A stretch of DNA of 64,000 nt, taken from contig NZ_JBEFLP010000001.1 in the NCBI RefSeq assembly GCF_040149665.1, positions 1,240,001 to 1,304,000 of the forward strand, read 5' to 3'. Positions within the stretch are counted from its first letter, which is position 1; every line of letters begins with the position of its first letter. The notes under the pieces are model-generated. The model worked only from the letters and a program-made list of their open reading frames with translations, was not told the DNA's origin and searched no databases. The position numbers were made by a program, and so were the translations under genes. The DNA is from Sulfitobacter sp. HNIBRBA3233. Lineage in GTDB: Bacteria > Pseudomonadota > Alphaproteobacteria > Rhodobacterales > Rhodobacteraceae. Shown here piece after piece: positions 26,922 to 31,452 of this stretch.

Positions 26922-27995
26922 TCAGGCCATCCCACCCCGGATTAGACCTTCGGCCATGCGCGCGTAGGCGTCGGCCATCGGGCCATCGCCGGCCGCGACT
27001 GGTGTGCCCGAATCCCCCGCCAGACGGGTCTCAAGGTCGATGGGCAGGCTGCCCAACAGCGGCACGCCCATTTTCTCGGCCTCGGCCCGCACGCCGCCCT
27101 GACCGAAAATCTCGTGCTGGCTGCCGCAGTCGGGGCAGACGAACATCGACATATTCTCGATCAGGCCCAGAACCGGTGTTTTGAGCGTGGCAAACATGTC
27201 CAGCGCCTTGCGCGCGTCGATCAGCGCCACGTCCTGCGGGGTCGACACGACGATCGCACCGGACAGCTCGGACTTTGTGCACAGCGTCAGTTGCACATCG
27301 CCGGTGCCGGGCGGCAGATCCACGAGCAGCACATCCAGCTCACCCCATTCCACCTGCCCCAGCATCTGCTGCAGCGCACCCATCAGCATGGGGCCGCGCC
27401 AGACGACGGCCTTGCCCTCTTCCATCATGAAACCGATCGACATCAACGTCACCCCATGCGCCTTCAGCGGAATGATCGTTTTGCCATCGGGGCTGCCCGG
27501 ACGTTTGTTGATCCCCATCATGCGGGGCTGCGAGGGACCGTAGATGTCGGCATCCAGCAGACCAACCTTGCGCCCCTGCCGCGCGAGGGCCACCGCAAGG
27601 TTCGACGATACAGTCGATTTGCCGACACCGCCCTTGCCAGACCCGATCGCGATGATCCGCTGGACGCCGGCGGGCTTGGTCGGACCATCCTGAGGCTTGG
27701 GATGGCCCCCGATCTTCAGACTGGGCGCGGCCGGGGCTTTGGGCGCGGGGCCGTGCGCTGTCAGCGCCACAGAGGCCTTTTCCACGCCGGGCAGCGACGC
27801 GACCAGTTTCTCCGCCGCATCGCGCAACGGGCCCATCGCCTTGGCAACCTCTGCCGAGGGTGCCTCGATCACGAAGCGGACGGTCGATCCGTCCACGGTA
27901 AGCGCCCGCACAATGTCATGCGCAACAAGGCTCTTCCCGTCCGGCAGCTTGATCCGTTCGAGAGCAGAGAGTACGTCGTCTTTCGTCAGCGGCAT
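26922..27995 (-). CDS. Mrp/NBP35-family Fe-S cluster carrier ATPase
   Basis: P-loop ATPase that binds and transfers Fe-S clusters (Mrp/ApbC type). The ATG at 27993-27995 is chosen because AAGGAG lies seven bases upstream. The 357-residue product has an N-terminal DUF59/MIP18-like domain (about 5-80) and a Pro/Ala-rich linker. The deviant Walker A GKGGVGKS is at 120-127. Switch motifs (DADIYGPSQPRMMG, LLVDLPPGTGDVQLTL) and a C-terminal CPDC cysteine pair that coordinates the bridging cluster follow. Confidence 0.93.
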   Translation of the reverse strand: MPLTKDDVLSALERIKLPDGKSLVAHDIVRALTVDGSTVRFVIEAPSAEVAKAMGPLRDAAEKLVASLPGVEKASVALTAHGPAPKAPAAPSLKIGGHPKPQDGPTKPAGVQRIIAIGSGKGGVGKSTVSSNLAVALARQGRKVGLLDADIYGPSQPRMMGINKRPGSPDGKTIIPLKAHGVTLMSIGFMMEEGKAVVWRGPMLMGALQQMLGQVEWGELDVLLVDLPPGTGDVQLTLCTKSELSGAIVVSTPQDVALIDARKALDMFATLKTPVLGLIENMSMFVCPDCGSQHEIFGQGGVRAEAEKMGVPLLGSLPIDLETRLAGDSGTPVAAGDGPMADAYARMAEGLIRGGMA

Positions 27996-28154
27996 GGCAG
28001 TCTCCTTCAGAGGGTACAGACATCGCAGATCGCGCCGCAGGTGCAAGGGTCGAGCCTGTCGCAGCGCACGGCACGCTCGCCCTAAGTCGGATGAGCTACA
28101 GGTCAACAATACCACCTATGCGCTTGCTGCATGGCAGCATTGCAAAGTTTTTTA

Positions 28155-28183
28155 TTGTGCGGCTGCAGCAATTAGCGCTATCA
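28155..28183 (+). promoter_or_regulatory. Candidate promoter of the anti-SD hairpin sRNA
   Basis: TTGTGC (28155-28160), 17-base spacer, CTATCA (28178-28183). The predicted start near 28190 coincides with the first hairpin. Plausible but not consensus. Confidence 0.4.
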
Positions 28184-28189
28184 ATAGGA

Positions 28190-28310
28190 CATGAAAACAA
28201 TCCTCCCGATGGTTTTCAGTTAAATACCAGAGCCTCTTACCTCCTCCCAAGAGGGTCTGATCTTTACGGCGGCGACATCTTCCTCCTCCCTGATGTCGTC
28301 GCCATTTTTT
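28190..28310 (+). ncRNA. Cuckoo/CcsR-like sRNA with CCUCCUCCC hairpin loops
   Basis: Three consecutive stem-loops expose pyrimidine anti-Shine-Dalgarno loops. Hairpin 1: arms 28192-28198/28212-28218, loop containing TCCTCCC. Hairpin 2: arms 28233-28238/28249-28254, perfect six-base stem, loop ACCTCCTCCC. Hairpin 3: arms 28268-28279/28292-28303, twelve pairs with one G-T, loop TTCCTCCTCCCT, followed by TTTTTT, an intrinsic terminator. This is the architecture of the alphaproteobacterial cuckoo RNAs (CcsR in Rhodobacter sphaeroides), which I recall as stress-induced and encoded beside a DUF1127 gene, as here. The 5' end is inferred from the candidate promoter. Confidence 0.78.
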
Positions 28311-28498
28311 ATCCAGACACATCCATCCGAATCGAAACGCCCGCACGGGGTGTTTATTTTTGCACATGGTTTCATGTAATTACGCAACGTCGCATATGCG
28401 CCTGGTGCATATCGGCTTTGCCTTCTTGAGCGTTGCGATCAGGGACGCCGTGCCTATTTCTATCCCAGACGCGACATTGAAAGACGAAAGAGAATAAC
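28311..28498 (+). promoter_or_regulatory. DUF1127 upstream region with sigma32-like promoter
   Basis: No gene is seen here. GTTGCGA (28432-28438) and GCCTATTT (28452-28459), 13 bases apart, resemble a heat-shock sigma (RpoH-type) promoter about 45 bases before the DUF1127 start. A CTTGAG element at 28425-28430 is an alternative -35 but the spacing would be too long. GAGAATAAC precedes the start codon. Confidence 0.4.
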
Positions 28499-28717
28499 AT
28501 GGCATTCTACAGCGACACACACACAGCCGGCACCGCAAAACCTAGCCGCATCGCAGCAATCTTTGACACCATCAGCCTGAAGCTGCGGCAGCGCCGCGCG
28601 TACCGCCAGACCTTCAACGAGCTTTGCACGCTGCACGACCGCGACCTCGCCGATCTGGGCCTGAGCCGTGGCGACTTCCGCCGCATCTCGCGCGAAGCGG
28701 CAGAAGCGGTCAGCTAA
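28499..28717 (+). CDS. DUF1127 protein (CcaF1-like small basic RNA-binding protein)
   Basis: A 72-residue basic protein with the DUF1127 motif at about 33-68 (RAYRQTFNELCTLHDRDLAD, then LGLSRGDFRRI), an Arg-rich helix-turn-helix-like segment. In Rhodobacter sphaeroides the DUF1127 protein CcaF1 is encoded next to the CcsR sRNAs, binds RNA and influences sRNA maturation. The same neighbourhood here, with anti-SD hairpins on both sides, suggests an equivalent role. The first 30 residues are a polar leader. A sigma32-like element upstream suggests stress control. Family assignment is firm; the RNA-binding role is by analogy. Confidence 0.9.
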   Translation: MAFYSDTHTAGTAKPSRIAAIFDTISLKLRQRRAYRQTFNELCTLHDRDLADLGLSRGDFRRISREAAEAVS

Positions 28718-28735
28718 GCCCGAAATTCCAATCCT

Positions 28736-28765
28736 TTCCGGGCCCTCCTCCCTTTAGGCCCGGAA
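28736..28765 (+). ncRNA. CTCCTCCC-loop hairpin downstream of DUF1127 (first)
   Basis: Nine-base perfect stem TTCCGGGCC/GGCCCGGAA with the 12-base loop CTCCTCCCTTTA, 18 bases after the DUF1127 stop codon. Probably part of a co-transcribed CcsR-like RNA processed from the DUF1127 mRNA. Confidence 0.7.
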
Positions 28766-28820
28766 GGTTCCGGCGCGGCAGAGTCTCGGTTTGCGATGAC
28801 CCCGCGCCACACGCGATGTT

Positions 28821-28894
28821 TCCACCCTCCTCCCTTTAGGTGGATGCATCACGAATACGGCGGCTCCCTCCTCCCAGGGTGCCGCCGTTATTCG
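28821..28894 (+). ncRNA. Paired CTCCTCCC-loop hairpins (second cuckoo-like RNA)
   Basis: Hairpin one: six-base stem TCCACC/GGTGGA (28821-28826/28839-28844) with exactly the same 12-base loop, CTCCTCCCTTTA, as the hairpin at 28736-28765. Hairpin two: 13-base stem with one bulged A (28852-28864/28881-28894) closing a CCCTCCTCCCAGGG apical element. The two-hairpin arrangement fits a cuckoo RNA. The tail (TTATTCGTTTCT) is only a weak T tract, so the 3' end is uncertain. Confidence 0.7.
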
Positions 28895-29109
28895 TTTCTG
28901 CCGCCGCATGTGTCCGTAAAGAGTGCTCCGTTTCGCCCCGGAGATGCGCAATCGCGGCATCAGAAAGCAAAACACGCCCCGGCCAGAAGCCCCCGACCCG
29001 CGCAGTGGCGGGGCGGAGAAGTGATATCAAATCTGCACCAGTAGCTGCGCCTGCACGCCCGACGCGTCGGCCCTGTCGAGCGCCACATAGCTTACGTGCG
29101 CGCGCCGTC
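28895..29109. other. Non-coding spacer after the hairpin array
   Basis: No gene seen. It contains a small CTCCG/CGGAG hairpin near 28929-28944 and GC-rich sequence up to the UvrD stop codon. No clear terminator for either strand is visible. Confidence 0.4.
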
Positions 29110-31452
29110 CTAGAACGGTACGTCGTCCGCCGCCGACAGGAAGCGTGCGACGACCTTCTTGTCGCCCGCCTTTTCGAACGCGACTTCCAGTTTGTCACCC
29201 TCGATTCCCTGAACCGTGCCGTAGCCGAATTTCTGGTGGAACACGCGTTCGCCGATGGTGAAGCTGCTGGACGCTGTCATGTCGATGGTGATGTTCTTTG
29301 CCTCCGACGGCTGGCTGACACCGCGCTGGCCAGACCGCGCCTGAAGCCGCCGCCACCCCGGAGAGTTGTAGACGTTCGCCTCCGCCGCCTGATCGTGCAG
29401 GCTGCTGGTCGGCATCGCCGCGCCAAAGCCTCCACCGTAAAGCCCCGGCGGGGTCAGAACCTCGACGTGGTCTTCGGGAAGCTCATCGATGAAGCGCGAC
29501 GGCATCGCCGACTGCCACTGCCCGAACACCCTGCGGTTCGCGACGAAGGACACGGTACAGATTTCCTCGGCCCGCGTGATGCCCACATAGGCAAGGCGGC
29601 GCTCTTCCTCCAACCCCTTGAGGCCGCTTTCATCCATTGATCTCTGCGAGGGGAAAAGGCCGTCCTCCCATCCGGGCAGGAACACGCAGGGAAATTCCAG
29701 ACCCTTGGCCGCGTGCAACGTCATGATCGATACTTTTTCGCCGCCCTCTTCCTGTTCGTTGTCCATGATGAGGCTGACGTGTTCCAGAAACCCTTGCAGG
29801 TTCTCGAACTGCTCAAGCGCCTTTACCAGTTCCTTGAGGTTCTCAAGACGACCGGGGGCTTCCGGCGTCTTGTCGTTTTGCCACATGCCGGTATAGCCGC
29901 TTTCGTCGAGAATGATCTCGGCCAGTTCCATGTGGCTGACGTCTTCGTCGCCCACCATGCGGCTCCACCGGTCGATCCCGTCGATCAGCAGGCGAAGCTG
30001 TGCCGCGCCCTTGCCGCCGATGCCTGCGTGGGCCAGCAGGATGCGCGCGCCCTCGACCAGATTGGTGCCGTGTTCGCGGGCGGTGCGCTGGATCTTCTGC
30101 TGGGCCACATCGCCCAGACCCCGCTTTGGCGTGTTCACGATCCGCTCGAACGCCAGATCGTCATCGGGCGAGGTGACGACGCGGAAATAGGCCATCGCAT
30201 CGCGAATTTCGAGCCGTTCGTAGAAGCGCGGCCCGCCGATCACGCGGTAGGGCAAGCCGATGGTCAGGAAACGGTCCTCAAACGCGCGCATCTGGTGCGA
30301 TGCGCGCACCAGTATGGCCATCTGGTCCAGACCATAGGGCCGCAGGCCGCGCGTGCCGCGCTGCATCGCCTCGATTTCCTCGCCGATCCAGCGGGCTTCT
30401 TCCTCGCCGTCCCAATGGCCGATCAGGCGCAGTTTCTCGCCGTCCTGCGCCTCGGTCCAGAGCGTCTTGCCCAGCCGCCCCTTGTTGCCCGCGATCACAC
30501 CGGACGCCGCCGCAAGGATATGGGGCGTCGAGCGGTAGTTCTGTTCCAGCCGCACCACATGGGCACCGGGGAAATCCGTCTCGAACCGCAGGATGTTGCC
30601 CACCTCGGCCCCGCGCCAGCCATAGATCGACTGGTCGTCATCGCCCACGCAACAGATGTTCTTGTGACCGCTCGCCAGCAGGCGCAGCCACAGATACTGC
30701 GCGACGTTGGTGTCCTGATATTCGTCCACGAGGATGTATTTGAACCAGCGCTGATACTGCGCCAGCACATCCTCGTGGGTCTGGAAGATCGACACCATAT
30801 GCAACAGCAGATCGCCGAAGTCGCAGGCGTTGAGCTCTTTCAGGCGGGCCTGATACTGGGCGTAGATCTCGACGCCGCGATGGTTGTAGGCACCCGCATC
30901 GGCTGCCGGCACCTTGTCGGGCAGCAGCGCGCGGTTTTTCCAGTCGTCGATGATGCCCGACAGCATCCGCGCGGGCCAACGCTTGTCGTCGATCTCTTCG
31001 GCTGCGATCAACTGCTTGAGAAGGCGCAGCTGGTCATCGGTATCGAGAATCGTGAAATTGCTTTTCAGCCCGACAAGTTCGGCGTGGCGGCGCAGCAGCT
31101 TTACGCAGATGGCGTGGAATGTGCCCAGCCACGGCATGCCCTCGATCTGCTGGCCCAGCATCGCGCCGACGCGATTCTTCATCTCGCGCGCGGCCTTGTT
31201 GGTGAAGGTCACGGCAAGTATCTCGTTCGGGCGTGCCCGTCCGGTGTTCAGCAGATGCACGATTCGCGCGGTCAGCGCGCGGGTCTTGCCGGTTCCGGCC
31301 CCCGCCAGCATCAGCACCGGGCCGTCCATCTGCTCTACCGCGGCCCGCTGCGCGGGGTTCAACCCGTCCAGATAGGGCTGCGGGCGGGCCGCCATCGCGC
31401 GTGCGGACAGTGAAGCGCTCTCGAAGGCGCTGTTTTCATCAAAACTGCTCAT
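29110..31452 (-). CDS. uvrD: UvrD/PcrA-type ATP-dependent DNA helicase
   Basis: Superfamily 1A 3'-5' helicase of nucleotide excision and mismatch repair. The 780-residue product has motif Q (LNPAQRAAV), Walker A GAGTGKT at 51-57, motif II (DEYQDT), QNYRSTP, LMTLHAAKGLEFP-like motif V (IMTLHAAKGLEFPCVF) and motif VI (RRLAYVGITRAE). The C-terminus has a Tudor-like module (GERVFHQKFGYGTVQGIEGD) found in PcrA/UvrD. Length and motifs fit; choice between UvrD and PcrA naming is convention. Both neighbouring genes on the right are divergent. Confidence 0.95.
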   Translation of the reverse strand: MSSFDENSAFESASLSARAMAARPQPYLDGLNPAQRAAVEQMDGPVLMLAGAGTGKTRALTARIVHLLNTGRARPNEILAVTFTNKAAREMKNRVGAMLGQQIEGMPWLGTFHAICVKLLRRHAELVGLKSNFTILDTDDQLRLLKQLIAAEEIDDKRWPARMLSGIIDDWKNRALLPDKVPAADAGAYNHRGVEIYAQYQARLKELNACDFGDLLLHMVSIFQTHEDVLAQYQRWFKYILVDEYQDTNVAQYLWLRLLASGHKNICCVGDDDQSIYGWRGAEVGNILRFETDFPGAHVVRLEQNYRSTPHILAAASGVIAGNKGRLGKTLWTEAQDGEKLRLIGHWDGEEEARWIGEEIEAMQRGTRGLRPYGLDQMAILVRASHQMRAFEDRFLTIGLPYRVIGGPRFYERLEIRDAMAYFRVVTSPDDDLAFERIVNTPKRGLGDVAQQKIQRTAREHGTNLVEGARILLAHAGIGGKGAAQLRLLIDGIDRWSRMVGDEDVSHMELAEIILDESGYTGMWQNDKTPEAPGRLENLKELVKALEQFENLQGFLEHVSLIMDNEQEEGGEKVSIMTLHAAKGLEFPCVFLPGWEDGLFPSQRSMDESGLKGLEEERRLAYVGITRAEEICTVSFVANRRVFGQWQSAMPSRFIDELPEDHVEVLTPPGLYGGGFGAAMPTSSLHDQAAEANVYNSPGWRRLQARSGQRGVSQPSEAKNITIDMTASSSFTIGERVFHQKFGYGTVQGIEGDKLEVAFEKAGDKKVVARFLSAADDVPF

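Follow-up and report, generated by a model that had tools for sequence, protein, structure and literature searches.

A probable stand-alone cuckoo-type small RNA ahead of a DUF1127 gene in Sulfitobacter, with an LsrB/VtlR-like box at its predicted promoter

Does the stretch located between an mrp/apbC-like gene and a DUF1127 gene of Sulfitobacter sp. HNIBRBA3233 code for a small RNA of its own, or is it a leader of the gene that follows, and what would switch it on? We analyzed a stretch of 64,000 nucleotides (the window, in what follows) of the 3.92-Mb genome of this strain, in which three DUF1127 genes were found. The putative sRNA stretch, 28190-28310, sits between the mrp/apbC-like gene, on the minus strand, and the DUF1127 gene. 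By its sequence this minus-strand neighbour reads as mrp/apbC, and a gene that reads as uvrD/pcrA-like lies farther along. We consider it likely that 28190-28310 is a stand-alone cuckoo-type sRNA acting in trans on Shine-Dalgarno sequences and probably switched by an LsrB-type regulator. The features on which this reading is built are the following:

28128..28142, plus strand: LsrB/VtlR-like box TGCATGGCAGCATTG of promoter P1, roughly -62 to -48 relative to the predicted start; 14 of 15 positions agree with the reverse-complemented VtlR motif
28155..28160, plus strand: -35-like hexamer TTGTGC of P1, from the sequence, with GCAGCA at 28165-28170 then
28178..28183, plus strand: -10-like CTATCA of P1, from the sequence, after a 17-nt spacer behind TTGTGC; predicted start near 28190
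28192..28218, plus strand: hairpin H1, from the fold, with the short loop motif CCTCCC (loop CTCCC inside ATCCTCCCGAT)
28228..28259, plus strand: hairpin H2, loop ACCTCCTCCC, motif CCTCCTCCC at 28240-28248, from the fold, the covariation and the Rfam CcsR1 match
28268..28310, plus strand: hairpin H3 (stem-loop 28268-28303, then A), loop motif CCTCCTCCC at 28282-28290, TTTTTT at 28305-28310; probable intrinsic terminator
28406..28420, plus strand: degenerate copy of the box, TGCATATCGGCTTTG, in the putative promoter P2 of the DUF1127 gene; 11 of 15 in the window, 13 of 15 in 15 of 30 rows
28433..28459, plus strand: putative P2 core TTGCGA ... CTATTT, from sequence and alignment; box-to-TTG distance 27, as in P1
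28499..28717, plus strand: DUF1127 gene, 72 aa (Pfam PF06568, 38.9 bits, cut-off 23.3)
28735..28766, plus strand: downstream hairpin D1, motif at 28744-28752, fold z -2.4
28815..28850, plus strand: downstream hairpin D2, motif at 28826-28834, fold z -4.9; match of model R1 at 28806-28898, 34.7 bits
28857..28888, plus strand: downstream hairpin D3, motif at 28867-28875, fold z -6.4; T-rich, interrupted tail

The first-pass annotation had described three hairpins with pyrimidine loops, a U-tract and a promoter-like TTGTGC-N17-CTATCA at 28190..28310, and both the sequence and the folds confirm this description. The downstream hairpins D1-D3, the LsrB/VtlR-like box and the recurrence of the promoter throughout the family are additions to it. 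H1 folds with -7.4 kcal/mol (z -2.0), and 9 of 200 shuffles were as good or better, which is weak alone. The values were -14.1 kcal/mol for H2 (z -2.6, 2 of 200 shuffles as stable) and -22.6 kcal/mol for H3 (z -7.9, none of 200), and the entire 28190-28313 reached -44.1 kcal/mol (z -7.1, none of 200). A promoter and a terminator belonging to the RNA had been claimed as well, and the promoter-like site and the H3-TTTTTT pair support the two from the sequence. A simple sigma-70 scan of 27000-29500 returned no promoters (0.6 expected), and H3 was absent from the terminator scan because its loop of 12 bases exceeds the 8 permitted. That scan listed 6 sites (1.9 expected), the H2 stem and 28335-28355 among them. 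The latter, which separates the sRNA from P2, is another hairpin that resembles a terminator (AAACGCCCGCACGGGGTGTTT followed by ATTTTTG), with z -2.0 for 28320-28362. The motif CCTCCTCCC is found at five sites of the window, two ahead of the DUF1127 gene and three behind it, when 0.64 would be expected (none of 100 shuffles reached five). Since the complete genome has 26 sites versus 37 for the pattern read backwards, the motif is clustered at the locus without a general enrichment. Away from the DUF1127-cuckoo locus (CIN1), a lone strong hairpin of -21.7 kcal/mol carries CCTCCTCCC in its loop (L222, G000:C1:2082388-2082396) and gave no Rfam matches at E 0.001.

The two best Rfam families for the upstream RNA were CcsR1 (RF02791, 44.6 bits, E 1.7e-9, spanning 28223-28307) and ar14 (RF02344, 37.5 bits, E 3.4e-5). 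The cuckoo/CcsR type proposed at first is supported by these two top families, and the covariance-model check sustained CcsR1 as the best one, but both matches stayed under the curated cut-offs (44.6 of 65.3 bits and 37.5 of 58.8 bits). At gathering thresholds a tRNA was the only match in the window. Among 16 related loci the best CcsR1 score was 61.7 bits, none attaining at least 65.3, and the ar14 cut-off was passed in L031 and L128. Because the cut-offs were missed, we call the RNA cuckoo-type by its anatomy and do not file it under CcsR1 or ar14. This anatomy consists of adjacent hairpins with CCUCCUCCC loops, with the full motif in H2 and H3 and the short CCTCCC in H1, and of variable stems that keep their pairing over 24 sequences. 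A 2015 abstract reportedly gives cuckoo RNAs two to four hairpins. A model made from the upstream RNA matched the downstream hairpins of the window with 34.7 bits, as well as 11 of 11 array loci of other genera and none of the 5 array-less DUF1127 loci supplied. The third hairpin, presented in the first-pass annotation as a variation, has to be discarded as a novelty. Relatives bearing three and four CCUCCUCCC loops, SmelA075 and SmelA099, have been in print since 2011, as the accessible part of that paper has it (PMC3927594), and NfeR1 is another such relative in the text available of PMC8844928. Like the RNA studied here, SmelA075 and SmelA099 (Rhizobiales) have CCUCCUCCC-loop hairpins with variable stems and several copies per genome, and they are described without DUF1127 or LsrB in the accessible part of the paper (PMC3927594).

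Loss of stem pairing in related genomes had been named beforehand as the observation that would count against the RNA. We compared 24 Sulfitobacter-group sequences and found the pairing kept, with compensatory changes. Paired cells amounted to 92.0% versus 84.2% in shuffled data, and 12 of 21 pairs were changed on both sides versus 6.7 in the shuffles; none of 500 shuffles reached either value. In H2, 8 of 9 pairs were changed on both sides with 82.4% of the cells paired, and in H3 99.3% of the cells were paired. The number of further pair types was unexceptional (26 versus 24.0, with 98 of 500 shuffles as high). When the 3' arm was taken from another genome, the mean energy went from -11.45 to -6.23 kcal/mol for H2 and from -22.44 to -19.74 for H3; no foreign 3' arm did better than the original one in 12 of 24 rows of H2 and in 4 of 24 of H3, the arms of which are alike. 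Across the 24 sequences the H2 motif does not vary, and CTCCTCCC is retained in every H3. When each sequence was folded singly, 23 of the 24 had all eight H2 motif bases free of pairing, L009 being the one that misfolds. The set comprises 24 of the 29 tandem loci, the near-duplicates L018, L024, L026, L028 and L030 having been omitted; L025 is cut by a contig end.

The number of upstream hairpins varies. The 30-row set used for this and for the box excludes L020 and L025, which have no DUF1127 match, and represents 29 distinct genomes, L014 and L032 being the same contig. Four motifs were found in 5 of the 30 rows; the five loci with four upstream hairpins (L015, L019, L024, L026 and L028) have a last T-tract weaker than that of the window. 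Upstream, L006 and L022 each combine a 9-base motif with an 8-base one. H1 is the least conserved hairpin, present and able to fold in just six of the 30 rows, L001-L006. Since it is nearly invariant and folds in all six (-6.2 to -7.4 kcal/mol), H1 looks like a feature of a clade. A mini-ORF in H1 (ATG 28191) was considered and rejected: two of the six genomes have the ATG and the other four have ACG or TCG in its place, so that there is no conserved reading frame.

How general is the arrangement? We searched 60 relatives with 28130-28320, and 32 matched at least part of it, all of them among the 36 same-genus genomes (own included); the same-genus G003, G004 and G022 gave no match in this search. 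A 33rd genome of the genus, G009, has the box and the promoter together with a pair of hairpins, one with a CTCCTCCC loop and the other with a decayed CCCCTCCC, and a T-tract. The location of the RNA upstream of the DUF1127 gene, already pointed out by the first-pass annotation, recurs therefore in the genus (32 of 36 genomes plus G009). Outside the genus, 43 of 48 rows had at least one motif downstream of DUF1127, and 46 of 48 had none upstream in the flanking DNA compared, which makes the self-terminated upstream copy look like a genus feature. These 48 rows were 20 loci of a first set and 28 non-genus loci from among the best-scoring of 93 matching genomes, chosen by similarity to the DUF1127 protein of the window, a choice that may overlook less common layouts; one strain supplied both L033 and L035, and L050 and L052 possibly fall outside the Rhodobacteraceae. 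The two outside rows with an upstream motif were L052, with one at 1351 bases, and L125, with eight. The eight motifs of L125 (G070:C6) precede a DUF1127 gene among several paralogues, that is, they belong to tandem DUF1127-cuckoo units. The longest cuckoo arrays behind DUF1127 in the flanking DNA compared had 17 (L144), 16 (L129) and 15 (L031) CTCCTCCC motifs.

A close known system is CIN1 of R. sphaeroides, with CcsR1-4 and ccaF1. In both cases CCUCCUCCC RNAs lie beside a DUF1127 gene, of 71 aa there and 72 here, and the downstream hairpins of the window share the 3'-UTR position of CcsR1-4, beside which we set them by description. However, CcsR1-4 are described as cut by RNase E out of the ccaF1 3' UTR and depend on one promoter, whereas the upstream copy has its own promoter-like site and terminator, which does not agree with a 3'-UTR-derived RNA co-transcribed with the DUF1127 gene. 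A self-terminated sRNA copy ahead of DUF1127 is apparently a new arrangement.

NfeR1 of S. meliloti belongs to the alpha-r14 group. According to the accessible text of PMC8844928, this sRNA is 115 nt long, has a promoter to itself and carries three anti-SD motifs. It resembles the Sulfitobacter RNA in its anti-SD loops and its own promoter; its LsrB site upstream of the core promoter has a predicted counterpart here in the LsrB/VtlR-like box. Unlike the case described here, the parts of the NfeR1 papers available to us describe it without mention of a DUF1127 neighbour, and they give it a sigma-70 core plus an NtrC site and the motif TGCA-N6-GCAT, versus TGCA-N5-GCAT here; its host belongs to a different bacterial order.

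The box would connect the locus to a regulator. The P1 box, TGCATRGCAGCATTG, is identical to the VtlR/LsrB motif at 12-14 of 15 positions; the published VtlR motif is CAATGCAGCCATGCA, as far as the text of PMC12595884 was available, and its reverse complement is TGCATGGCTGCATTG. The best 15-mer of P1 reached 12-14 of 15 in all 30 rows (at least 13 in 26), and that of P2 10-13 of 15 against the reversed motif over the same 30; in 1500 shuffles 12 of 15 was reached once and 13 never. The pattern TGCTGCRNNGCAGCA was present in 39 of 40 genus genomes searched, with 0-1 control sites each. A test of fixed positions, GCAT-N3-TG-N3-T, failed: six of seven were kept, with A for T at box position 9, and this deviating A is found in 29 of 30 P1 rows. 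Outside the genus, a box of at least 12 of 15 was found in 36 of the 43 rows with downstream motifs, being missing in 7, and in none of the 5 rows without motifs. In this family scan, with 100 shuffles per row, shuffled sequences attained 12 for several rows and 13 for a single row (L041), which means that no lone match of 12-13 is strong by itself; as the rows are besides related by descent, the co-occurrence of box and array is an association and not a series of independent trials.

Anchored on the box, 35 outside promoters (the 36 minus one duplicate) gave the consensus c.ATGCa.tTgCTGCATaGCaGCATTG, then aTtgtgcA...gcagca, then ccc.at.Tt, and TTGTGCAnnnGCAGCA recurs in these 35 distinct promoters outside the genus. 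The Sulfitobacter P1 retains the box and TTGTGCA-N3-GCAGCA. P2 (consensus made without L014 and L032) lacks the GCAGCA part and retains the left ATGCA and, in common with part of the outside rows, GCGGCATTG. By its sequence, P1 would drive the sRNA and P2 the DUF1127 gene. The -10 part loosely resembles RpoH promoters, and for the ccaF1-CcsR locus of R. sphaeroides, described as stress-induced, the accessible part of PMC10253847 gives an RpoHI/RpoHII promoter. The location of the box can be set beside published ones: in S. meliloti NfeR1 transcription reportedly requires LsrB, bound at -72 to -57 (PMC10746234, in part), and the LsrB site of abcR1 is placed at -61 to -49 (PMC8844928, in part). 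Sites of the NfeR1/abcR1 type cover about -72 to -49, and the box would lie at approximately -62 to -48 of the predicted P1 start. VtlR activates DUF1127 genes in Brucella, as the portion of PMC12595884 at hand says. The predicted LsrB/VtlR-like box at CIN1 is the part that looks new to us.

Is there a regulator to bind it? The genome carries a LysR gene, L160:1495-2391, found by a scan of the LysR genes, whose best PDB match is 9HH1 (E 2.3e-71, 243 bits, next 115), the structure deposited by the Agrobacterium LsrB paper. Reciprocally, the best match of LsrB among the 25 LysR loci of the genome is L160 (239 bits, next 130), and 47 of 64 residues of the N-terminal stretch are identical. Of 120 family genomes, counting the own one, 117 have an L160-like gene, as one match in all but few, with identities mostly of 65-86% and of 49-59% in seven. 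The neighbour of vtlR in published cases is trxB; none of 30 loci examined of the 117 genomes had trxB within 1.5 kb of the L160-like gene, and LsrB sought through this neighbour was not found in the own genome or in Microvirga. Among the NCBIfam models shown, none reaches its cut-off for L160. L160 does not keep the LsrB cysteines at three positions of the alignment, so the signal that it senses may differ. The accessible text of PMC11975290 calls LsrB unique to Rhizobiales, from few species, and that of PMC7486931 places VtlR/LsrB in many Alphaproteobacteria; because these accounts of its spread disagree, the LsrB-like gene is no discovery in itself. The likeness to the LsrB/VtlR regulon (AbcR sRNAs, VrsA, DUF1127 genes) lies in the LsrB-like regulator, the near-identical box and the sRNA and DUF1127 targets, although the targets reported in the accessible accounts are, unlike the candidates here, all of Rhizobiales. 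The AbcR RNAs themselves are not known to be cuckoo RNAs.

Put together, the RNA would be a self-contained cuckoo (CcsR/ar14-like) molecule of ~120 nt, two or three hairpins of which would offer CCUCC(U)CCC loops, the last one probably ending transcription. As these loops are complementary to Shine-Dalgarno sequences, translational repression in trans is suggested, such as reported for NfeR1: by analogy with NfeR1 and CcsR and by its anatomy, the RNA may pair with purine-rich Shine-Dalgarno sequences and lower the translation of a set of mRNAs. The stretch precedes an ordinary DUF1127-cuckoo locus (CIN1), and a possible origin is a duplication of the promoter-DUF1127-hairpin unit followed by loss of the first DUF1127 gene; L125 offers an example of units in tandem. 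Since both promoters carry versions of the box matching LsrB/VtlR, we propose that an LsrB-type LysR regulator, possibly together with an RpoH-type sigma factor, probably activates the sRNA and perhaps the DUF1127 RNA-binding protein too. Regarding targets, the genome has 21 other perfect 9-nt complements, five of them with a start codon 2-14 nt on that opens more than 60 codons; three of the five start codons are ATG (L224, L226 and L232). Judging by their sequence, only two of these complements (L224 and L226) resemble the Shine-Dalgarno site of a gene, with GGGAGGAGG at 6 nt (L224) and 8 nt (L226) before the ATG, which makes them candidate perfect-match targets. The frame of L224 reads as a small membrane-protein-like one and that of L226 as CoA-transferase-like. 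Perfect pairing explains few targets, therefore shorter pairing must be assumed.

Repression of translation is not the only role that such a molecule could have. Its neighbour might use it instead, as a decoy or as a maturation partner of the DUF1127 RNA-binding protein: in R. sphaeroides the DUF1127 protein CcaF1 binds RNA and takes part in the maturation of CcsR (PMC10253847, accessible part), and the genes for RNA and protein have the same box type here. We regard this role as unlikely, given the anti-SD action reported for NfeR1 in the available text of PMC10746234 and PMC8844928. Somewhat more doubtful still is that the upstream hairpins are a cis-acting leader or attenuator of the DUF1127 gene, in which H3 would terminate unless a signal permits read-through, with no trans RNA at all. 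P1 is indeed followed, ahead of the gene and on its strand, by H3 with its TTTTTT, five loci (L015, L019, L024, L026 and L028) have a weaker T-tract behind their final upstream hairpin, and a DUF1127 gene of S. meliloti is controlled by leader attenuation. But the S. meliloti attenuator, as the accessible part of PMC12218461 presents it, depends on translation of an upstream ORF and showed no intrinsic terminator, and the ORF of H1 starts with ATG in 2 of 6 genomes and with ACG or TCG in 4. Besides, a P2-like stretch with a related box at an equal box-to-TTG distance stands between terminator and gene, and a loop motif that is invariant while the stems vary is not required by attenuation. The PhaR regulator, which would place sRNA and DUF1127 in the PHB and acetyl-CoA regulon, was favoured first, on the CTGC-N3-GCAG core common to most P1 boxes, the phaR gene of the genome and the PhaR-type boxes at phaP and phaR (CTGCRNYGCAG at the phaP and/or phaR promoters, at least one in each of 30 genus loci, L060-L089), and we now hold it improbable because the phaP/phaR boxes have a pyrimidine at the third spacer base, in line with the S. 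meliloti PhaR motif YGCRNYGCR of the accessible part of PMC12542648, whereas all 30 P1 boxes have A (18) or G (12), and because the 15-base match, like the target class (DUF1127 genes and sRNAs), points to LsrB/VtlR.

Returning to the stand-alone sRNA under LsrB-type control, a wider conjecture, to which we would give an even chance, is that LsrB/VtlR control of anti-SD sRNAs and DUF1127 is an old alphaproteobacterial circuit, rather than one peculiar to Rhizobiales, that runs CIN1 of Rhodobacteraceae, and that Sulfitobacter duplicated the promoter, giving the sRNA a transcript of its own and uncoupling it from the dose of the protein. If the box is an LsrB site, CcsR/CcaF1 in Rhodobacter and LsrB/NfeR1/AbcR in rhizobia describe one circuit, a connection that we did not find in the literature searched, and the CIN1 activator of a marine family of wide distribution would then be a gene with a name, open to deletion. 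Because the layout of Sulfitobacter seems to give them separate promoters, the roles of the sRNA and of the RNA-binding protein would be separable. Neither a stand-alone Sulfitobacter cuckoo RNA nor LsrB control of CIN1 was found among the top open-licence literature matches, so an earlier description is possible, and a paper on Paracoccus sRNAs (PMC5107571) did not contain the topics sought.

Two further sites of the box type deserve mention. The exact TGCATGGCTGCATTG is found at L055:1501-1515 (minus strand; G000:C1:520730-520744), upstream of a gene that reads as pyruvate dehydrogenase E1 alpha (pdhA). In R. sphaeroides the CcsR RNAs act on the pyruvate dehydrogenase complex. The other, TGCATCGCAGCATTG, is found at L054:1501-1515 (G000:C1:455072-455086), upstream of a gene that reads as proB.
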